The position numbers and the translations under genes were made by a program. A stretch of 36,614 nt of DNA, from assembly GCF_013415325.1 (NCBI RefSeq), contig NZ_JACBYE010000045.1:1-36614 (forward strand). The letters run 5' to 3'. The DNA is from Sanguibacter inulinus. Its GTDB lineage: Bacteria; Actinomycetota; Actinomycetes; Actinomycetales; Cellulomonadaceae. The notes beneath the pieces were generated by a model, which made no database searches, had not been told where the DNA came from, and saw only the letters and a list, made by a program, of their open reading frames with translations. Below are positions 5,638 to 31,418 of this stretch, one piece after another. Positions within the stretch are counted from its first letter, which is position 1. Each line of letters starts with the position of its first letter.

Positions 5638-5689
5638 CGACGACGTACCAGTGTGCGAGCGGAAGGATGCGGGGCGTGCCCCGTCGTCG

Positions 5690-7762
5690 ATGAACATGAA
5701 ACGCATTGTGAGCGGACCGTTCCTGTGGATCGTCCTCGGTCTGGTGATCGTCGGCTTCGCCCTCAGCACGCTGTTCGGTGAGAAGGTCTCCAAGATCGAC
5801 ACCTCGGACGGGCTCACGCTCCTCGCGGGGGACACTGTCGAGCAGGCCCTCGTCGTCGACGGAGACCAGCGCGTCAGGCTGACGCTGACCGAGCCCTTCA
5901 CGGTCGACGGCGACGACAAGGGCAAGAGCGTCGAGTTCTACTACGTCGAGCCCCAGGGCGAGCAGGTCGTCGACGCTGTCGTCAAGGCCGACCCCGAGAA
6001 GGGCTACAACTCCGAGGTGGCCCGAGCCGGCTTCCTCTCGTCGATGCTCTCGATCATCATCCCGTTCCTCATCATCGGCGTGATCTTCTACTTCATCCTC
6101 TCGCGCATGCAGGGCGGCGGCTCGCGCGTCATGGGCTTCGGCAAGTCGAAGGCCAAGCTCGCGACCAAGGACACCCCGCAGGTGACCTTCGCCGACGTGG
6201 CCGGTGCTGACGAGGCCGTCGAAGAGCTCCGCGAGATCCAGGAGTTCCTCTCAGAGCCCGCCAAGTTCCAGGCCGTCGGTGCCAAGATCCCCAAGGGCGT
6301 GCTGCTCTACGGCCCTCCCGGGACCGGTAAGACCCTGCTGGCCCGCGCCGTCGCCGGCGAGGCCGGCGTCCCGTTCTACTCGATCTCCGGATCGGACTTC
6401 GTCGAGATGTTCGTCGGTGTCGGTGCCTCCCGTGTCCGCGACCTGTTCGCGCAGGCCAAGGAGAGCGCCCCGGCGATCATCTTCGTCGACGAGATCGACG
6501 CCGTCGGCCGGCACCGTGGTGCCGGCATGGGCGGCGGCCACGACGAGCGCGAGCAGACGCTCAACCAGCTCCTCGTCGAGATGGACGGTTTCGACGTCAA
6601 GGCGAACGTCATCCTCATCGCCGCGACCAACCGCCCGGACATCCTCGACCCCGCCCTGCTGCGGCCGGGTCGTTTCGACAGGCAGATCGCCGTCGAGGCC
6701 CCCGACCTCCAGGGCCGCGCCGACATCCTCGCCGTGCACGCCAAGGGCAAGCCGATCGTCGAGGGCGTCGACCTGCGCGCCGTCGCCCGTCGGACCCCCG
6801 GGTTCTCGGGCGCCGACCTCGCGAACGTCCTCAACGAGGCCGCGCTGCTCACAGCACGCAGCGGAGCCCAGCTGATCGACGACCGCGCCCTCGACGAGGC
6901 GATCGACCGCGTGATCGCGGGACCGCAGAAGCGCACCCGCATCATGAACATCAAGGAGCAGAAGATCACGGCGTACCACGAGGGTGGTCACGCCCTGGTC
7001 GCCGCTGCGATGCGCTACACGGACCCCGTCACCAAGGTGACGATCCTGCCGCGCGGCCGCGCCCTCGGCTACACGATGGTCATGCCGTCGGAGGACAAGT
7101 ACTCGACCACCCGCAACGAGCTGCTCGACCAGCTCGCCTACGCGATGGGTGGCCGCGTCGCCGAAGAGCTCGTCTTCCACGACCCGACCACGGGTGCGTC
7201 GAACGACATCGAGAAGGCGAGCGCCACAGCCCGCAAGATGGTCACCGAGTTCGGCATGAGCGAGCGCCTCGGTGCGATCAAGCTCGGGCAGAGCGCCGGC
7301 GAGCCGTTCATGGGCCGCGACATGGGGCACCAGCGCGACTACTCCGAGGCTGTCGCCGGGACCGTCGACCACGAGGTGCGTCGCCTGGTCGAGGCTGCGC
7401 ACGACGAGGCGTGGTCCGTCCTCGTGGAGTACCGCGACGTGCTCGACCACCTGGTCCTCGAGCTCCTCGAGAAGGAGACGCTCAACCAGGCCGAGCTCGC
7501 CGCCATCTTCGAGCCCGTCGTCAAGCGCGAGCCGCGCGAGGTGTGGCTCTCGAGCGAGCAGCGCGCCGTCTCCGACCGCGGACCCGTCCTCACCGAGGCC
7601 GAGAAGGCCGTCCAGGGTGACGCCCCGGTGATCCCCGAGGACGAGGCCGCCGCAGCCCGCGACGAGCACCCGGCCGAGGCCGTGGGCGAGGTCCCGCCGG
7701 GCGGGACCGTCGGACCTGTCGACCTCGCCAAGCCCGGCGCGAGCGACGAGACGGGCGCATGA
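5690..7762 (+). CDS. ftsH: ATP-dependent zinc metalloprotease, membrane-anchored AAA+
   Basis: FtsH degrades misfolded or short-lived membrane and cytosolic proteins; the hexamer is held in the inner membrane. Two membrane segments (about residues 8-26 and 118-140) flank a small extracytoplasmic domain. The AAA+ module has Walker A GPPGTGKT from residue 208, Walker B with Asp267-Glu268 in FVDEIDAVG, and the second region of homology ending RPGRFDRQ. The zinc site is HEGGH (430-434). About 70 C-terminal residues are acidic and low-complexity. The start is uncertain: ATG 5690 gives [13 protein letters not shown], as is typical. The Shine-Dalgarno-like GGAAGGA is 22 nt away but a small hairpin lies between them. 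GTG 5651 is the upstream alternative. The stop overlaps folE. Confidence 0.96.
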
Positions 7763-8367
7763 GCGACGTGACGGACGAGAGCGGCGTGCACGCCGAGCAC
7801 GCGCCGGTCGACCTCCCGCGCGCCGCCGCGGCGGTCCGCGAGCTCTTGATCGCCGTCGGCGAGGACCCGGACCGTGAAGGCCTGCTGGACACCCCGGCCC
7901 GGGTCGCCCGGGCCTACGCCGAGACCTTCGCAGGGCTCCGGCAGGACCCGGCCGACGTGCTCAACGCGGTCTTCGACATCGGCCACGAAGAGATGATCCT
8001 CGTGCGCGACATCGAGGTGTACTCCACCTGCGAGCACCACCTGGTGCCCTTCCACGGGGTCGCCCACGTCGGCTACATCCCCGGGGTCGACGGTCGGGTC
8101 ACCGGGCTGAGCAAGCTGGCCCGCCTGGTCGACGTCTTCGCCAAGCGCCCGCAGGTCCAGGAACGTCTGACCGCGCAGGTCGCCGACGCGCTCGTCGAGC
8201 ACCTGGCGCCGCGCGGCGTGATCGTCGTGATCGAGTGCGAGCACCTGTGCATGTCGATGCGCGGCGTGCGCAAGCCTGGCTCGCGGACCGTCACCTCTGC
8301 GGTCCGTGGCCAGATGCGCGAGGCCGCCACCCGGGCTGAGGCCATGAGCCTCATCGTCGGGCGCTGA
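7759..8367 (+). CDS. folE: GTP cyclohydrolase I
   Basis: FolE converts GTP to 7,8-dihydroneopterin triphosphate, the first step of folate synthesis. The zinc ligands are recognisable: Cys91 in [12 protein letters not shown] and Cys164 in [16 protein letters not shown], with the histidine of the first motif. The segment [14 protein letters not shown] near residue 40 is also typical. The 202-residue length is normal. Its ATG overlaps the ftsH stop as ATGA, which indicates translational coupling. folP and folBK follow, so the operon encodes the pterin branch in pathway order except for aldolase and kinase coming after the synthase. Confidence 0.96.
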
Positions 8368-8378
8368 CGGCCCAGGCC

Positions 8379-9425
8379 ATGCCTCTGCCGACGAACGCCG
8401 GCTCCACGGCCCTACCGGGTCCGGAGCCGCTGCCCGCGTCCCTGCGAGGGCGTGACCGGACCCTCGTCATGGGTGTCGTGAACGTGACCCCTGACTCGTT
8501 CTCCGACGGCGGCGAGTGGTTCGAGCCCGGGGCAGCGATCCGTCACGGACGCGAGCTGCTGGCCGAGGGCGCCGACGTCCTCGACGTCGGCGGTGAGTCG
8601 ACGCGTCCGGGGTCGGCGCGGGTGAGCGTCGAGGACGAGCTCGCGCGGGTGCTGCCCGTGGTGCACGCGCTCGCCGCCGAGGGTGCCGTCATCTCGGTCG
8701 ACACGACCCGGGCCGTCGTCGCCGAGCAGGCCGTCGCCGCGGGTGCGCTCGTCGTCAACGACGTCTCGGGTGGCCTCGCCGACCCCGCCATGGCTGAGGT
8801 CGTCGCACGGACCGGGGTCGTCTACGTCGTCATGCACTGGCGTGGGCACGCCGACGTCATGGACAGCCTCGAGCACTACGACGACGTGGTCCTCGACGTC
8901 CGCCGCGAGCTCGCCGAGCGGGTCGACGCCCTCGTCGCCGCAGGCGTGCGCCGCGAGCAGCTCGTCGTCGACCCCGGGCTCGGCTTCTCCAAGGCCGGGT
9001 CGGCCAACTGGCCGCTGCTCGCCGGGCTCGACGAGCTCGCGTCGCTCGGTCTCCCAGTGCTCGTCGGAGCCTCGCGCAAGAGGTTCCTCGGGCACCTGCT
9101 CGCAGGCGCGGACGGGGAGCCTGTCGCTCCGCTCGAGCGTGACCACGCGACAGCCGCCGTGAGCGCCCTCGCGGCCGCAGCGGGCGCCTGGTGCGTGCGC
9201 GTCCACGAGGTGAAGAGCACAGCAGACGCCGTCCGGGTTGCCCAGGCATGGGTCGGTGCCGGACGATCACTGGACCGCTCGGGGACACCCGGGCCAGATC
9301 TTCCTGGAGGCGGGACCGTGCTCGACGACGAGCGCGGCGCCGTAGACCAGGCTCCGGGCGCCGCGGCGCCGCACGACCACACGACAGCACCACGACGGAC
9401 GACGAAGGACGGGGAGAGCGCATGA
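8379..9425 (+). CDS. folP: Dihydropteroate synthase
   Basis: FolP joins hydroxymethyl-dihydropterin pyrophosphate to p-aminobenzoate; it is the sulfonamide target. The core (about residues 20-300) shows MGVVNVTPDSFSDGG, DVGGESTRPGS, NDVSGG, VDPGLGFSK and GASRKRF in the right order. The remaining ~45 residues are a low-complexity Pro/Gly/Asp tail absent from typical FolP proteins. The ATG at 8379 is 11 nt after folE with no strong Shine-Dalgarno sequence. The stop overlaps the FolB start (ATGA at 9422). A start at the conserved MGVVNVTPDSF would be too short at the N-terminus. Confidence 0.95.
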   Translation: MPLPTNAGSTALPGPEPLPASLRGRDRTLVMGVVNVTPDSFSDGGEWFEPGAAIRHGRELLAEGADVLDVGGESTRPGSARVSVEDELARVLPVVHALAAEGAVISVDTTRAVVAEQAVAAGALVVNDVSGGLADPAMAEVVARTGVVYVVMHWRGHADVMDSLEHYDDVVLDVRRELAERVDALVAAGVRREQLVVDPGLGFSKAGSANWPLLAGLDELASLGLPVLVGASRKRFLGHLLAGADGEPVAPLERDHATAAVSALAAAAGAWCVRVHEVKSTADAVRVAQAWVGAGRSLDRSGTPGPDLPGGGTVLDDERGAVDQAPGAAAPHDHTTAPRRTTKDGESA

Positions 9426-12400
9426 GCACCTTGGTGCAACGATCGGTCCTGGACGCGAGCGGCTTCCCGCTCGACCAGATCCAGATCCTCGGGATCGCGG
9501 CACGAGGCTTCCACGGCGTGCTCGAGAGCGAGCGCGAGGCGGGCCAGGACTTCAGCGCCGACGTGACCCTCTACCTCGACACCCGTGCGGCTGCGCGGGA
9601 CGACGACCTCGACGAGACCGTGAACTACGCGCTCGTCGCCCAGGACGTCGTCGACATCCTCACCGGTGCCCCGGTCGACCTCATCGAGACCGTCGCGGAG
9701 CAGATCGCCGCAGCGATCCTCGACCGCCCGCTCGTGGCCTCGGTCGACGTCACCGTGCACAAGCCGCAGGCCCCGATCCCCGTGCCTTTCTCCGACGTGA
9801 CCGTGACGATCAACCGCGACAGGCTCAACGTGCCCGTGGTCGCGTCGCCGGTCGCCCCTGCACTCGACGAGATCCCGCTGGTAGACCGTGCCGCTGAGCC
9901 CGTGGCCCTGCCGGTCGAGGGCGATGCGCCGCAGCCCGTCCCGGGGCTCCCCGCCGGGGTCGAGGAGCCTGCCGTCGCGCTCACGGCGCTGCCGGCCGTC
10001 GTGCCTGCCCCGGCCGATCTCCCCGAGGCCTTCGAGCCCGTCGCGCTCCGGGTCGACGAGGTCGACCACGCACCCGAGGCCGAGGCGCCGCAGCCGTCGG
10101 CCAACCCGACGCTCGACCTGCCCCTCGGGGTCCTCACGGCTCCGGTCGCCGCCCGCGAGGCCGACCCCGCGAGCTACGGCGAGTCCGAGCTTCACCTCGA
10201 GTCCGACCTGGTCCACGAGGGTGAAGAGACGTCTGAGGACTCTGCGCCTGCGTCGCCTGCAGGCACCGCGAGTGCTGGTGCACCGTCTGGTCTGCCGGAG
10301 GTCGCCGCCGTCCCGCCCCTCGACGAGGCAGCCCTCGCCGAGCAGGCACGCCTCTCGGAGGAGGTCCGCAGGCCTGAGGTCTTCGGTCTGCGTCCGCGCA
10401 CCGAGGTGCACGACAGGTCTGAGCCGAGCGTCAGCCCCGCCGTCGACCCTGAGGACGACGTCCGCGGGACGTCGACGGGCCAGGACGCCGAGCCGGCACA
10501 GGATGCCGTGGACGAGACGGTCGACGTCACCTCGTCGGCCGCTGCACCGGACGAGGCCGAGGTCCCTCCAGCACACGAGGGCCTGGAGACCGACGAGAGC
10601 GCTCGAGCCGCCGGTGATGCACCCGCCGTGGACGGGCGAACCGTCGGCACGACGGGTGAGGAGCCCACAGCGACCGAGCGTCCTGGCGGGCGTCAGCCGA
10701 GTGCCGCCTTCTTCGCCGCGGCGAGCGCCGCGGTGCTCAACGCGAGCCGTGAGCGCGCCCCGCTGAGCTTCGAAGAGCTGCTCAACCCGACTGCTGCCAC
10801 AGCGCCGTCGGAGGTCGCAGCCTCGGAGCAGGCTCCGGATGCAGATGCAGATGCAGATGCAGCCGCAGTCGCGTCGCGCCGCGACGAGAGCTCGGCTGTG
10901 GAGCCGACCCAGGTGGTGCCGACGTCACCGGGCGACGAGGACGGCGCCCGCGACGACGCAGCTGACGAGACTGACCACGAGCACGGCGCTCCGACCGACG
11001 CTGCGGGTCTCGTCTCCGCGGACGAGGACGATACAGAAGCCGAGACCGCCCACGGCGAGCCTGTTCACCACGAGGCTGCGTACGAGCAGGTAGCGCACGA
11101 GCAGCCAGCGCACGACGAGACTGCGCACGAGCAGCCAGCGCACGACGAGACTGCGCACGAGCAGCCAGCGCACGACGAGGCTGAGCACGACGACGCTGCT
11201 CACCACATCGCTGGTCTCGACGGCTCGCCGCACTCGGGTGCGGCGGCTGAGGAGACGGCCGTCGGCTCTGCGCCTGAGGATGCTGATACCCCGCCCTCCG
11301 AGGCCGGAGACAGTGCACGCCTCGACGAGACCCAGGTCATGGCCCCGGTCCGCGACGAGCTCGTGAGCGCGGCGGTCGTCGAGCAGGACGGTGACGGCGA
11401 CGTCTACGCCCCTGACGACGACCACGCCGAGCAGGTCACGTCTCCTGCCTCGGAGGACGACGCACCCTACGTGCCGGAGTTCGCCCTGGCGCCACTGGCC
11501 CCGTTCACCCCGCCGACCGCGGTCGTTCCGACCGAGGCTGAGCAGCAGACTGTGCCCGGGTGGACACCTGAGCACAGAACCGACGAGGCGCAGACCGGTG
11601 CGCTCGACACTCACGGGATCCCTGCCGACACCGACGAGGCCCTGACCGGCTCCGGTGAGGCCTGGTCCGAGGATCTCGGCTCGGACCGGACGAGCATCGA
11701 CGAGCACACAGAGCACACAGAGCACACCGAGCACACCGAGCAGACCGAGCAGACCGAGCACACCGAGCACCTCGACCACACCGAGGACGCCGGAGACGAC
11801 GACAGCGTCGACGGCGAGGACGGTCACCTCGCTGCTGACGACTCTCCCGCGGCTGAGGCGTCCGAGCCCGAGCGCACCGGCAGCGGGTCTGTGCCCGAGG
11901 CTCCCGCCGTCGACCACGAGTCGGCAGTAGACCAGCTGACGACCCCGACGGCGCCGGTCCCCGTCGTCACGGCGACCCCGGGCGAGGGCCTGCCGACGGA
12001 CGAGACCGGTGCTGCGACCTCCGCACCGGCAGGTGTCCCGAGCCTCGGCCTCGGGACCCAGACTGTCGCCGGTCCCTTCGGCGACCTGTCCGAGCCCGAG
12101 GACGCGCACCAGATGCCGCTCCAGCTCGACCGCATGGACGCCCGGCCGGACGAGCCTGTCGACGCCGTGCTCGCGCTCGGCGCCAACCTGGGCGACGCCC
12201 AGGGCACCCTGCGTCGCGCCGTCGCCGAGCTCGGGACCCTCACCGGGGTCGACGTGGTCGAGGTCGGGCCGCTCGCCCGCACCGCAGCCGTCGGTGGACC
12301 CGAGCAGCCCGACTTCCTCAACACCGTCGTGATCGTCCGCACCACCCTCTCGCCGCGCGAGCTGCTGCTCGGCTGCCAGTCGGTCGAGGCCGGCAACGGG

Positions 12401-12997
12401 CGGGTCCGTGACGTCCGTTGGGGCCCGCGCACCCTCGACATCGACATCGTCGTGTACGGCGACGTCATCGGGTCTGCCCCGGACCTCGAGCTCCCGCACC
12501 CTCGCGCCAACGAGCGCGCCTTCGTGCTGGCGCCCTGGGCCCACCTGTCGCCCGATGCGCACCTGCCCGGCCTGGGTGGTGGACCTGTCGCTGCCCTCGC
12601 CGCCACGGCCCACGACCGCGAAGGGATCCGCTGGCTGGCCCTCGACTGGTTGCACGACGCCGAGGTCCCCACGGCAGCCCAGGTGCGGCGTCCCGCGACC
12701 GTCGCCCCGGCGCTGACCGCCGTGCAGGTCGTCTCGGTCCCTCAGCCCGAGACCGACCAGGCGGTCGACCAGGTGCCCGACGGCGAGGACGCCGGTCAGA
12801 CGGGGTACCAGCCCGAGGCCGCAGCAACCGCCGGTGCCGTCGAGCCCGATCCCGCCAGCGCCGACCACGAGCACGCCACGGATGGTCTCGCCGGAACTTC
12901 TGACGAGGGCTTCGGCTGGCCCGGGGGGCCGCCCGTGATCGAGCACCCCGAGCTGCAGGACGACGACAGCCCGGCCTCGCCGGACCGCCCGGTCTGA
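9422..12997 (+). CDS. folBK: FolB-FolK fusion with an exceptionally long acidic linker
   Basis: The 1,191-residue protein carries two folate enzymes. Residues 1-137 are dihydroneopterin aldolase (FolB): GIAARGFHGVLESEREAGQ, a catalytic segment ETVNYALVAQDV, and a C-terminal VDVTVHKPQAP. Residues ~912-1080 are the pyrophosphokinase (FolK): LALGANLGD, the segment ending RWGPRTLDIDIVVYGD, and LPHPRANERAFVLAPW. Between them lie ~770 residues rich in Glu, Asp, Ala, Thr, Pro and Ser, with tandem repeats at 473-480, 561-590 and 761-781; ~110 similar residues follow FolK. Stand-alone FolB and FolK are about 120 and 160-170 residues, so most of this protein is extra. The start ATG overlaps the folP stop, and the long frame stays open with normal G/C at third positions. 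I infer intrinsic disorder; any scaffold or localisation role is unknown. Confidence 0.92.
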   Translation: MSTLVQRSVLDASGFPLDQIQILGIAARGFHGVLESEREAGQDFSADVTLYLDTRAAARDDDLDETVNYALVAQDVVDILTGAPVDLIETVAEQIAAAILDRPLVASVDVTVHKPQAPIPVPFSDVTVTINRDRLNVPVVASPVAPALDEIPLVDRAAEPVALPVEGDAPQPVPGLPAGVEEPAVALTALPAVVPAPADLPEAFEPVALRVDEVDHAPEAEAPQPSANPTLDLPLGVLTAPVAAREADPASYGESELHLESDLVHEGEETSEDSAPASPAGTASAGAPSGLPEVAAVPPLDEAALAEQARLSEEVRRPEVFGLRPRTEVHDRSEPSVSPAVDPEDDVRGTSTGQDAEPAQDAVDETVDVTSSAAAPDEAEVPPAHEGLETDESARAAGDAPAVDGRTVGTTGEEPTATERPGGRQPSAAFFAAASAAVLNASRERAPLSFEELLNPTAATAPSEVAASEQAPDADADADAAAVASRRDESSAVEPTQVVPTSPGDEDGARDDAADETDHEHGAPTDAAGLVSADEDDTEAETAHGEPVHHEAAYEQVAHEQPAHDETAHEQPAHDETAHEQPAHDEAEHDDAAHHIAGLDGSPHSGAAAEETAVGSAPEDADTPPSEAGDSARLDETQVMAPVRDELVSAAVVEQDGDGDVYAPDDDHAEQVTSPASEDDAPYVPEFALAPLAPFTPPTAVVPTEAEQQTVPGWTPEHRTDEAQTGALDTHGIPADTDEALTGSGEAWSEDLGSDRTSIDEHTEHTEHTEHTEQTEQTEHTEHLDHTEDAGDDDSVDGEDGHLAADDSPAAEASEPERTGSGSVPEAPAVDHESAVDQLTTPTAPVPVVTATPGEGLPTDETGAATSAPAGVPSLGLGTQTVAGPFGDLSEPEDAHQMPLQLDRMDARPDEPVDAVLALGANLGDAQGTLRRAVAELGTLTGVDVVEVGPLARTAAVGGPEQPDFLNTVVIVRTTLSPRELLLGCQSVEAGNGRVRDVRWGPRTLDIDIVVYGDVIGSAPDLELPHPRANERAFVLAPWAHLSPDAHLPGLGGGPVAALAATAHDREGIRWLALDWLHDAEVPTAAQVRRPATVAPALTAVQVVSVPQPETDQAVDQVPDGEDAGQTGYQPEAAATAGAVEPDPASADHEHATDGLAGTSDEGFGWPGGPPVIEHPELQDDDSPASPDRPV
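10838..10861 (+). repeat. 6-bp tandem repeat (GATGCA x4) inside folBK
   Basis: Four perfect copies of GATGCA encode Asp-Ala four times (residues 473-480). Because the unit is a multiple of three, changes in copy number keep the reading frame. Confidence 0.9.
11101..11190 (+). repeat. 30-bp tandem repeat x3 inside folBK
   Basis: Two identical 30-bp copies (11101-11130 and 11131-11160) are followed by a third (11161-11190) with two substitutions; a degenerate half copy precedes them. Each unit encodes ten residues, QPAHDETAHE, at residues 561-590. The near identity at the DNA level indicates recent duplication. Confidence 0.95.
11702..11770 (+). repeat. 9-bp tandem repeat (Glu-His/Gln-Thr) inside folBK
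   Basis: Seven copies of a 9-bp unit, GAGCACAC(A/C) or GAGCAGACC, and a partial eighth encode EHT x4, EQT x2, EHT, EH at residues 761-782. The frame is preserved for any copy number. Confidence 0.95.
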
Positions 12998-15459: not shown

Positions 15460-16394
15460 GCGAGACGACAGGGTCCCGGCGCCCCGGACGGCTCGGTGTC
15501 GGGATCGTCGGCGCAGGCCGGGTGGGAGCCGTGCTGGGCAACGCGCTGCGCTCGGTCGGCCACGCCGTCGTCGGTGTGTCGGCGATCTCCGAGGCCTCCC
15601 GCGAGCGAGCCGGGGCCATGCTGCCCGGTGTCCCGGTCCTCGACGTCCGTGACGTCGTCGAACGCTCCGAGCTCGTGCTGCTCACGGTCCCGGACGACGC
15701 CCTCGGGCCGCTCGTGTCGGGTCTGGCCGACCTCGGGGTCTGGCAGCCCGGCCAGATCGTCGTGCACACCTCAGGCCGCTACGGCACCGACGTGCTCGCG
15801 CCGGCCCGGGCCCAGGGCGCGATCCCCGTGGCGATCCACCCCGCGATGACCTTCACGGGGACGTCCCTCGACCTCGGCAGGCTCGAGGGGACGACCTTCG
15901 CGGTCACGGCGCCGGGGCCCGTCCAGCCGATCGGCCTCGCGCTCGTCGTGGAGATCGGCGGGGAGCCTGTGGTCATCGCCGAAGAAGACCGTGGTCTCTA
16001 CCACGCAGCCCTCGCGCACGGCGCGAACCACCTCGTGGTGCTCGTCGCGCAGGCGGCGCAGGCGCTCCAGGTCGCCGGGATCGACGACCCGGGCCGCGCG
16101 CTCGCGCCGCTGCTGCACGCCGCGCTCGACGGCGCGCTGCGTGCGGCGGACGGCGTGGGAGACCCCGTGCAGACCCTCACCGGGCCCGTCGTGCGCGGTG
16201 ACGCGGGCACCGTCGAGACGCACCTCACCGAGCTCGCGTCCCTGGCCGCGCACCGCGACGCGACCGACACCGTCGACAGCTATCGCGCCCTCAGCAGGGC
16301 AGCCACCGTGCGTGCGCTCGCCGCAGGCCGGATCAAGGACGGGCAGGCGCAGTCCCTGCTCGACGTCCTGAACGCCCCCCAGAAGGAGAACTGA
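15456..16394 (+). CDS. Rossmann-fold DUF2520 oxidoreductase-like protein
   Basis: The 312-residue protein starts with a nucleotide-binding glycine motif, GIVGAGRVG (residues 16-24), as in ketopantoate reductase and NADP-oxidoreductase families. This is followed by the DUF2520 helical C-terminal domain, with [19 protein letters not shown] in the middle. Its position immediately before panC and panD is conserved in actinobacteria. Because ketopantoate reductase (PanE) makes pantoate, the other substrate of PanC, a role as a PanE-like enzyme is tempting but unproven. The ATG overlaps the preceding stop (ATGA), and the stop overlaps panC (TGATG). It could equally act on another small carbonyl substrate. 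Confidence 0.83.
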
Positions 16395-17386
16395 TGCTCA
16401 GCGGCCATCCCAGGCCAGTCGTGACCACCACCCGCGCGGACCTCGCGCAGGTGCTCGCCCGTCCGTCCGACGCGCCACCGCGCCGCCGCGCCGTCGTCAT
16501 GACGATGGGTGCTCTGCACGCGGGCCACCTCGAGCTCGTCCGTGAGGCCCGGCGCCTCGCCGACGAGGTGGTCGTGACGATCTTCGTCAACCCCCTGCAG
16601 TTCGGCCCGGGGGAGGACCTCGACAGCTATCCCCGGACCCTCGACGCAGACGTCGCGCTGCTCACCTCGGTCGGCGTCGACGTCGTCTTCGCACCGACCC
16701 TCGACGAGATGTACCCCGACGGACGCCCGATCGTCAGCGTCACCGCCGGCCGCATCGGCACGGTCCTCGAGGGCGCGTCCCGGCCCGGCCACTTCGACGG
16801 GGTGCTGACCGTCGTCCTCAAGCTGCTGCACCTCACCGCGCCCGATGTCGCGGTCTTCGGCGAGAAGGACGCGCAGCAGCTGCTCGCCGTCCGCAGGCTC
16901 GTGCACGACCTCGACGTGCCTGTGACGATCCACGGTGTGCCGATCGTCCGCGACGACGACGGCCTCGCGCTGTCCTCGCGCAACGCCTACCTCTCGGCCG
17001 AGGAGCGGTCCCGCGCGCTCGCGCTGTCCTCGTCGCTCGCCGCAGGCCGCGACGCCGCGCTCCGTGGCGCCCAGGCCGACGAGGTCCTCGAGACGGCCCG
17101 GGGAATGCTCGGGGCTGCCGAGGGCGTTGACGTCGACTACCTGGTGCTCGTCGACCCCGCTACCGTGGACGACGTGCCCCCGGACCACACAGGTCCCGCC
17201 CTGCTGCTCGTCGCGGCTCGCGTGGGCACCACGAGGCTCATCGACACCATGGCGGTCGAGCTCGACGGCGCGGTCTCCGACAGCGCCGGCACCGGCCGAA
17301 CCGGCACCGGCCGATCCGGCGCCGACGGCCCCGCCACCACAGCCAGCACCACCACCCAGCACCGCACCACCGGAGGAACCCCGTGA
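16394..17386 (+). CDS. panC: Pantothenate synthetase
   Basis: PanC joins pantoate and beta-alanine with ATP to give pantothenate. The HIGH-like motif is MGALHAGH (residues 38-45), followed by [20 protein letters not shown], the segment [10 protein letters not shown], and the KMSKS-equivalent region [18 protein letters not shown] departs from the common FGEKDYQQL by Ala in place of Tyr. The 330-residue length exceeds the usual ~280-310 because of a Gly/Thr/Ser-rich C-terminal tail. That tail includes a 15-bp tandem duplication (17286-17315) and may be non-functional drift. The stop overlaps the panD start as GTGA. Confidence 0.95.
17286..17315 (+). repeat. 15-bp tandem duplication in the panC tail
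   Basis: Two copies of CCGGCACCGGCCGA plus one variable base encode part of the Gly/Thr/Arg-rich tail. The unit is a multiple of three, so the frame is preserved. Confidence 0.85.
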
Positions 17387-23005: not shown

Positions 23006-24112
23006 ACCACGGACTCCGCACCCCAGCAGCGACTTCTCGTCGGAACATATCCAGCCTCGGGAGAGCCAGGGTCGGGTGAAGGGATCTGGTCGCTCGACCT
23101 CGATCTCGGTTCCGGGGAGCTCTCCGGAGCTCGGCAGCTGGTCGAGGCCGTGTCACCGTCGTTCCTCGCCCTGAGCCCGGACCGTGACGTCGTCGTCGCG
23201 GTGTCCGAGACCGCCCATGGGCGCGTGCGGACCTTCGCTGTCGACGGAGACGAGCTGGTCGCCACCTCCGACGCCTCGACGGGCGGAGAAGACCCCTGTC
23301 ATCTGGTCGTCGGTCGAGGTGACGTCCTCGTCGCGAACTACAGCACGGGGAGCCTCGCGGTCCTGCCCACCTCCGCCGACGGGCGCCTCGGTGGATCTGT
23401 GGCGACCTTCGCCCACACAGGTTCCGGGCCGGTCCGTGACCGGCAGAGGTCACCCCACGCGCACTTCGTCCTCGAGGTGTCGGAGCGGTTCGTGTGGGTG
23501 AGCGACCTCGGGACCGACGAGATCCGCCGCTACCGCAGGACGTCGACACCGGGGGTCCTGGTCGCCGACGGGGTGGCCGTGACCTTCCCGCCCGGCACCG
23601 GCCCCCGTCACATTGCGCTGGGGGCCGACGGCACCGCCTTCGTCGTCGGTGAGCTGGACTCCCAGGTGCACGTGGTGCGCACGGCATCAGACGGGAGCGG
23701 CGTCCTGGTCGCCAGCCTCCCCGCCTGCTCGACCCCCGCGACCGAGAAGGGCAGCTTCCCCTCGCACATCGCTCTCTCGCAGGACGGTACCCGGCTCTAC
23801 GTGGCGGTCCGCGGTCCTGACGTCCTGGCAGCCTTCGCGGTCGAGGCCGGCGACGGCGAGGTCCCTGTCGTGCGTCACCTGGCAGACTCGCCCTCCGGTG
23901 TGGTCTGGCCTCGTCACCACGCCGTCCTCACCTCGTCCGCTGCTCGGGTCGAAGGTGAGGAGCCGGACGGTGGCCCTGTCTCCGACCTCGTCGTAGTCGC
24001 CGGGCAGACCTCGGGTGACGTGACAGCGCTCAGGGTCGACCGGGAGACGGGGATCGCCGACCTCGTGTCGTCCGTGCCGCTGCCAGCACCGGCCTGCATC
24101 ATGACGGTCTGA
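23003..24112 (+). CDS. Lactonase-family seven-bladed beta-propeller protein (6-phosphogluconolactonase type)
   Basis: The 369-residue protein resembles the lactonase / YbhE (Pgl) family, which hydrolyses 6-phosphogluconolactone in the pentose phosphate pathway in some bacteria. Typical segments are LLVGTYPASGEPGSGEGIW at the start, PSFLALSPDRDVVVAVSE, HLVVGRGDVLVANYSTGSLAV, PHAHFVLEV, and GTGPRHIALGADG; each repeats the blade pattern. No signal peptide is visible. A related enzyme acting on another lactone cannot be excluded. The gene is monocistronic: it has its own promoter, and its stop codon lies within an 8-bp tandem repeat leading into a hairpin. Confidence 0.82.
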   Translation: MTTDSAPQQRLLVGTYPASGEPGSGEGIWSLDLDLGSGELSGARQLVEAVSPSFLALSPDRDVVVAVSETAHGRVRTFAVDGDELVATSDASTGGEDPCHLVVGRGDVLVANYSTGSLAVLPTSADGRLGGSVATFAHTGSGPVRDRQRSPHAHFVLEVSERFVWVSDLGTDEIRRYRRTSTPGVLVADGVAVTFPPGTGPRHIALGADGTAFVVGELDSQVHVVRTASDGSGVLVASLPACSTPATEKGSFPSHIALSQDGTRLYVAVRGPDVLAAFAVEAGDGEVPVVRHLADSPSGVVWPRHHAVLTSSAARVEGEEPDGGPVSDLVVVAGQTSGDVTALRVDRETGIADLVSSVPLPAPACIMTV

Positions 24113-24152
24113 CGGTCTGACGGTCTGACGGTCTGACGGTCGCCTGACCGTC
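24103..24152 (+). repeat. 8-bp tandem repeat spanning the stop codon, leading into a hairpin
   Basis: GACGGTCT occurs four times in a row (24103-24134), then GACGGTCG (24135-24142), followed by the complement GACCGTC at 24146-24152. The lactonase-family stop codon TGA (24110-24112) is part of the first unit boundary. The last copy and the complement form a terminator-like stem; the other copies can pair with the same arm. Confidence 0.85.
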
Positions 24153-31316: not shown

Positions 31317-31381
31317 TCGATCAGCACAGCTCGATCAGTGCAGCTCGGTCAGCTCACCTCGGTCAGCTCACCTCGGTGAGC
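31317..31381. repeat. 14-bp tandem repeat x4 and hairpin between gpmA and phoU
   Basis: Four units of 14 bp run from 31317 to 31372: two of the type TCGATCAG(CA/TG)CAGC and two identical copies of TCGGTCAGCTCACC. A partial fifth unit then makes the inverted repeat GCTCACC-TC-GGTGAGC (31366-31381). The array lies after the gpmA terminator and about 40 nt from the phoU stop, so the hairpin may end phoU transcription. Confidence 0.8.
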
Positions 31382-31418
31382 GCTGCCGGATGAGCGCAGC
31401 TCGACCCGAGCGCGCGGG

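Follow-up and report, generated by a model that had tools for sequence, protein, structure and literature searches.

A fast-changing, probably disordered 770-residue linker between FolB and FolK of Sanguibacter inulinus looks like a tether with a short conserved motif

Fusions of folate enzymes have been described in several organisms. Excerpts of the respective articles report that FolB (dihydroneopterin aldolase) forms tetramers, two of which pair up into an octamer in some bacteria (PMC4790348), that Bifidobacterium longum has a duplicated FolK fused to FolB (PMC1971073), and that eukaryotes have a folB-folK-folP fusion (PMC4224340). In the DHNA-HPPK of Streptococcus pneumoniae (2cg8) FolB is followed by FolK in one chain, and since FolK occupies residues 122-251 of the 270 residues, this protein is essentially linkerless and has no long tail. 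A short interdomain linker is typical of FolB-FolK fusions without strictly defining them, and the excerpted open-licence literature on such fusions contained no long FolB-FolK linker. In this article, we describe a fusion from Sanguibacter inulinus in which FolB likewise precedes FolK within a single chain. Two parts of this chain matched 2cg8, from which it differs in having a linker of 770 residues and a C-terminal tail of 116 residues.

The gene lies in a cluster with the order ftsH-folE-folP-folBK-DUF3180 within the window, i.e., the whole stretch of 36,614 nucleotides that was analysed. The relevant features are as follows, the limits of linker and tail being set by phmmer domain edges.

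7759..8367, plus strand: folE of the same cluster, GTP cyclohydrolase I
8379..9425, plus strand: folP, dihydropteroate synthase, with a 56-residue tail
9422..12997, plus strand: folBK fusion gene, 1191 aa, its ATG overlapping the folP stop as ATGA (9422-9425)
9452..9826, plus strand: FolB domain, residues 11-135 as delimited here (PF02152 / TIGR00525)
9827..12136, plus strand: acidic linker of 770 residues, predicted to be disordered, residues 136-905
12137..12646, plus strand: FolK (HPPK) domain, residues 906-1075 (Pfam, NCBIfam and fold match)
12647..12994, plus strand: acidic low-complexity C-terminal tail of 116 aa, residues 1076-1191

The initial annotation, made from the sequence alone, had described a single uninterrupted frame from 9422 to 12997 that starts with a complete FolB and ends with a complete FolK. 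The frame is indeed open over its 1191 codons, contains both domains of a bifunctional FolB-FolK enzyme, and encodes a chain with a predicted mass of 123 kDa. Both domains are complete according to Pfam and NCBIfam; the chain, however, continues for 116 aa beyond the FolK domain edge. The Pfam matches, which are nearly full-length relative to the profiles, cover residues 20-130 for FolB (E 3.5e-33) and 916-1044 for FolK (E 2.3e-35), and the scores exceed the curated cut-offs both for FolB (PF02152, 114.9 bits vs 31.8; TIGR00525, 102.2 vs 72.15) and for FolK (PF01288, 121.9 bits vs 25.7; TIGR01498, 132.8 vs 54.1). In fold comparisons FolB matched 1nbu over 117 columns with 47% identity, and FolK matched HPPK structures with TMt of about 0.9. 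The acidic, repeat-bearing stretch of about 770 residues that had been noticed between the domains was recovered at residues 136-905, with a net charge of -0.195 per residue and with tandem arrays. Two other proteins encoded in the window, FtsH (5651-7762) and PanC (16394-17386), likewise finish in short low-complexity tails.

The linker is probably disordered, as the initial annotation had supposed; this prediction draws on pLDDT values below 50 and on the scarcity of order-promoting residues. The linker consists mainly of A (17%), E (12%), P (11%), D (10%), V (8%), T (7%) and S (6%), with 26% of its residues charged, and the share of I, L, M, F, W, Y and C is 8.3% compared to 21.6% in FolB and 20.0% in FolK. 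Among 80 linkers of the family, 77 have a share of bulky order-promoting residues below the lowest domain value. The AlphaFold model, built from an input of 37 sequences that included two other Sanguibacter, has a mean pLDDT of 53 and values below 50 at 834 of the 1191 FolBK residues, including most of the linker. By the charge-hydropathy rule the linker falls on the disordered side with a margin of -0.049 and is one of 25 among the 80 linkers to do so, the number being this small because many linkers are Ala- and Val-rich. The low-order run score of FolBK is 799 in the window and 822 in a sister species (G019). No comparable low-order stretch was found among 269 genes of the latter, of which none scored at least 700, two at least 500 and six at least 300, in a rough survey of 400 kb (20 evenly spaced stretches, about 9% of the chromosome) whose crude codon-based caller yielded several long calls resembling antisense artefacts and at least one resembling a normally folded enzyme.

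The fusion is shared by nearly all of the family genomes examined. Of 150 family genomes, 146 gave a FolK match and four did not; from the former we took the window and 80 of the 145 other matched genomes, mostly those with better assemblies. FolB and FolK share an open frame in 80 of the 81 genomes. In the lone exception (G052/L076) the two domains are separated by about 360 nt and do not share a frame; since this genome is listed as 81% complete, sequencing indels are likely. The 80 linkers range about fifteen-fold, from 52 to 779 aa with a median of 152 aa, and 53 of them have at least 100 aa. The six Sanguibacter linkers (g1) measure 258, 290, 344, 471, 770 (window) and 779 aa, the last being found at the same place in the single-contig chromosome of G019. 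Linkers longer than 240 aa characterise all sampled members of four genera: Sanguibacter (6/6), g7 (6/6), g8 (7/7) and g23 (4/4). Among named loci, whose species overlap the family set, 77 of the best 80 of 236 relatives are fused, while three gave no FolB; two of these begin less than 350 bases from FolK, and the third is L187 (Cellulosimicrobium cellulans JZ5). In L187, FolK lies near the contig end and the 6 kb upstream contain neither FolB nor FolP, which may possibly reflect an assembly error or another arrangement of the locus.

Other families of the order present a different picture. Sixty genomes were taken from 76 with a match; in 16 of them the genes are separate, neighbouring or overlapping, and lie in different frames, the distance between the domains being -22 to +71 nt. 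The other 44 have the fusion, with a linker of at most 35 aa in 31 and of at least 100 aa in seven. By family, linkers are near-zero in f11 and f17, 12-35 aa in f7, 31-32 aa in f9, 43-70 aa in f13 and 114-219 aa in f20; two f3 genomes have 166 and 264 aa, and outside f13, f20 and these two the range among the 60 genomes is -8 to 76 aa. A gene tree built with FastTree from 88 taxa and 295 columns (rooted at the midpoint, support values not inspected) unites f1, f13, f20 and the two f3 genomes and places the f1 genus g5 (linker 91 aa) outside. In a draw of 60 genomes from the phylum, 58 of which have FolK, the longest FolK-holding open frame besides that of the window has 551 aa. Since other families have separate genes or mostly short linkers, the long linker is apparently derived, and it is most extreme in the window and its sister (770-779 aa). 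The order-wide comparison, together with the 270-residue chain of S. pneumoniae, thus bears out the earlier statement that the linker is unusually long for a FolB-FolK fusion.

Growth of the linker can be traced in its tandem repeats, the longest of which are the following.

11041..11198, plus strand: in-frame tandem repeat of 15/30 bp with a 10-aa unit of HEQPAHDETA type
11701..11785, plus strand: in-frame tandem repeat of 9 bp with an E/H/T/Q unit, 9.4 copies

Within the 15-bp family of the first array, a 30-bp unit is repeated 3.3 times with a 97% match (11093-11190), and a further tandem repeat is found at 10838-10862. Tandem arrays with a period of at least 6 occur in 56 of the 80 linkers compared to 2 of the 80 domain pairs, and their periods are divisible by three in 178 of 181 rows (overlapping rows being counted apart); therefore, the linkers have grown by in-frame duplication. 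The long repeats of the window are absent from the linker of the sister species, and for that reason they look recent. Elsewhere in the window there are a perfect 8-bp tandem repeat, TGACGGTC, in five copies (24102-24141) and a 14-bp tandem repeat in 6.3 copies with a 78% match (31317-31404).

It had further been suggested that the retention of 2 kb of such sequence indicates selection, and that folBK should be compared across the family in linker length, charge and dN/dS. The linker's own frame is free of stops, the two remaining forward frames have 7 and 22, and one of the reverse frames has a single one; none of 1000 mononucleotide shuffles was open (mean 11.9 stops). Because of the reverse frame with one stop, an open frame by itself says little at this G+C content. 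The net charge is negative in 78 of the 80 linkers, and in none of the 80 if their DNA is translated in the +1 or +2 frame. When nucleotides were aligned without regard to frame, 45 of 47 gaps in five closer pairs comprised whole codons, and another pair was gapless; between the window and its sister, 17 of 35 gaps are multiples of three in an alignment that is apparently too diverged to trust. The dN/dS ratio is about 0.24-0.71 for the linker, 0-0.23 for FolB and 0-0.17 for FolK, as estimated from the 12 measurable of 13 pairs, one with saturated dS, the linker values depending on a doubtful alignment. Judged from these sequences, the linker is real coding sequence that is constrained in frame and charge and far less in its letters; the suggested selection therefore holds for frame and charge and is much weaker for the sequence itself.

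Short islands stand out against this diverged background. Those in the window are as follows.

10019..10060, plus strand: LPEAFEPVALRVDE, residues 200-213, common to the sister species and containing F-x-P-V
10325..10360, plus strand: helix predicted by AlphaFold, residues 302-313, just before RRPEVFG
10367..10387, plus strand: RRPEVFG, residues 316-322, invariant in the six Sanguibacter linkers
10706..10795, plus strand: AFFAAASAAVLNASRERAPLSFEELLNPTA, residues 429-458, a second block common to the sister species

RRPEVFG is the only invariant run of at least four residues among the six Sanguibacter linkers, whose mean pairwise identity is 0.34, and in most of them it is preceded by an LxEQARxSE-like segment. 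A degenerate codon pattern for the motif occurs exactly once in each of the six Sanguibacter genomes, always in folBK, and in none of four genomes of other genera. As a family-wide motif it was rejected, being absent from all 74 linkers of other genera and thus restricted to Sanguibacter. The block 301-310, which falls largely on the predicted helix, has a mean pLDDT of 72 and is the only ten-residue block wholly within the linker above 70, and RRPEVFG itself lies in a stretch (316-342) with pLDDT below 50. Other genera have islands of their own, namely PIPVGSVAPALIHGV and VMPPSIPP in g8, and PVGSITPAVLGNV and VMPPSIPP in g23. SFEELL was also considered as a family motif and rejected, since its tight pattern is confined to two Sanguibacter linkers; a looser pattern is found in 8 linkers of five genera compared to 2.05 in shuffles, a weak excess.

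We propose that in-frame duplication has produced a disordered tether, which in Sanguibacter carries a docking-like motif peculiar to the genus, and on balance we consider this reading probable. The adjacent folB and folK genes of the order would have merged into one gene, and in the clade that holds most of the family the junction would have been lengthened by in-frame tandem duplication into a disordered, acidic, Pro/Ala-rich spacer. The main role of this spacer would be that of a flexible tether, which keeps the local concentration of FolK near the FolB oligomer high and leaves FolB free to assemble. Its sequence would be largely free, with the frame, the small number of bulky hydrophobics and the negative charge retained. 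The small helix and RRPEVFG would most likely bind a folded partner, either within the same chain or on a different protein. The computations themselves show the fusion, the predicted disorder, the retention of frame and charge, the growth by duplication and the motif common to the genus; the tethering function and the binding are what we infer. Several observations count against this reading: linker length is not essential to the enzymes, because relatives with near-zero linkers manage without it; most linkers of the family do not fall on the disordered side of the charge-hydropathy rule; and RRPEVFG has a low pLDDT and is confined to one genus.

Neutral growth is a serious rival to the tether, although we hold it to be doubtful. 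It would consist of a ratchet in which duplications lengthen a tolerant, soluble spacer, frame and charge being kept merely to spare FolK and the length itself being useless. Such a process would fit the fifteen-fold length range, the long repeats that the sister lacks, and the fact that 31 of the 44 fusions from other families have linkers of at most 35 aa. The weak constraint is likewise a counterpoint to the tether, since a linker dN/dS of 0.24-0.71 is also expected without any positive function. What a neutral ratchet explains poorly is that motif islands are conserved amid a diverged background, and that whole genera keep more than 240 aa, which a deletion-biased genome should trim, if the bias that we assume exists.

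A second alternative assigns a larger role to the motifs, including those in the tails. Many family members (e.g., L056, L074 and L049) have low-complexity tails of 200-470 aa after FolK with F-x-P-V (FAPV), and the tails of g7 and g15 share a PVFAPV island. In the tails of relatives, F precedes APV 42 out of 247 times, which is 19-fold over the average, and P.F.PV, a pattern picked after ranking many, is present in tails from 10 genera compared to 1.0 in five composition shuffles. These shuffles preserve composition only, and related genera are not independent. The window's own C-terminal tail contains no F-x-P-V. Of the FolP tails at 81 loci, 78 are 2-62 aa long, and the matches of L075, L076 and L078 were set aside as run-on or early-ending; [FW]xPV was flagged in none of the 78 FolP tails of normal length. 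An F/W-x-P-V motif shared by FolP and FolBK was accordingly rejected; the one tail flagged, that of L076, is an 889-aa frame run-on. According to the second alternative, linker and tail motifs (RRPEVFG in Sanguibacter, F-x-P-V elsewhere) would gather folate enzymes into a scaffold or condensate. RRPEVFG with its adjacent predicted helix and the enrichment of F before APV and of P.F.PV in the tails point in this direction, but the clean FolP tails, the lack of F-x-P-V in the window's tail and the limits of the shuffles speak against it, and we consider it unlikely. Condensation by the FolBK linker, which the initial annotation had put forward along with the spacing of an octameric FolB ring from FolK modules and with tethering to FolP, is possible. 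In its boldest form, which we regard as more unlikely still, FolBK would be a scaffold with four or eight long arms projecting from the FolB ring, each bearing FolK and a partner-recruiting helix-RRPEVFG, and within these disordered regions the docking motifs of different genera would have diverged (RRPEVFG, PVGSxxPAL/VMPPSIPP, F-x-P-V). If this were true, a pathway assembly would be organised around a housekeeping folate enzyme.

The linker would never act as a tether if FolB and FolK were made separately, by internal initiation or by proteolysis of the linker. Disordered linkers are prone to protease attack, and in the window Met905 directly precedes FolK as part of a short conserved element.

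12128..12136, plus strand: DRM just before FolK; D-x-[M/L/F] is found at this place in 74 of 80 linkers and D-R-[M/L/F] in 46 of 80

Of the 80 linkers, 27 have Met directly before FolK, 43 have Leu, 8 have Phe and 2 have another residue, and the Shine-Dalgarno match length before FolK is 2.79 compared to 2.66 at random linker positions. Because the residue is mostly not Met and there is no clear Shine-Dalgarno excess, a conserved start just before FolK, one form of the internal initiation that the initial annotation had named as undermining its reading, is not supported; D-x-[M/L/F] is a peptide motif and not a conserved start codon. Separate production of the two enzymes is in our judgement quite improbable, though starts elsewhere in the linker or proteolysis might still lead to it. 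An assembly or gene-model artefact, likewise named at the outset, is hardly credible: the window's genome is a 109-contig draft in which the copy number of short repeats could be wrong, but a 779-aa linker is present in the separate single-contig genome of the sister, FolB and FolK are fused in 80 of 81 genomes, and repeats and gaps come in whole codons.

The disordered tether thus remains the reading that we prefer, and the linker looks like a fast-changing but real tether with a short conserved motif. The order provides a natural length series, from 0 to about 780 aa, of one two-enzyme fusion across one bacterial order, which is a ready system for studying the effect of linker length on flux and assembly in a pathway that is an antibiotic target. 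It also provides a case of a disordered region built by whole-codon duplication in a housekeeping enzyme, inside which a genus-specific motif survives.

Among known systems, those most similar to this protein include the FolB-FolK fusions in other families of the same order, in which FolB likewise precedes FolK within a single frame. They differ in their linkers, 31 of 44 being no longer than 35 aa and 7 of 44 reaching at least 100 aa. The best analogue in architecture is fusicoccadiene synthase PaFS, which according to the excerpted text of PMC8190136 has an octameric core joined by a disordered linker to mobile domains of a second enzyme, and for which proximity or cluster channelling is discussed there (PMC8190136). 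The linker described here is likewise predicted to be disordered. In contrast, PaFS is a terpene synthase composed of different enzymes, and its linker (345-413) has about 69 aa compared to 770 aa (PMC8190136, in excerpt). With regard to the mode of growth, the nearest parallel is found in Borg elements, where, as an excerpt of PMC9879509 states, repeat units divisible by three within open reading frames yield fast-evolving disordered regions. Borg elements are archaeal and extrachromosomal, and the proteins concerned are often extracellular or membrane proteins (PMC9879509, same excerpt), whereas here the repeats lie within a bacterial housekeeping enzyme.
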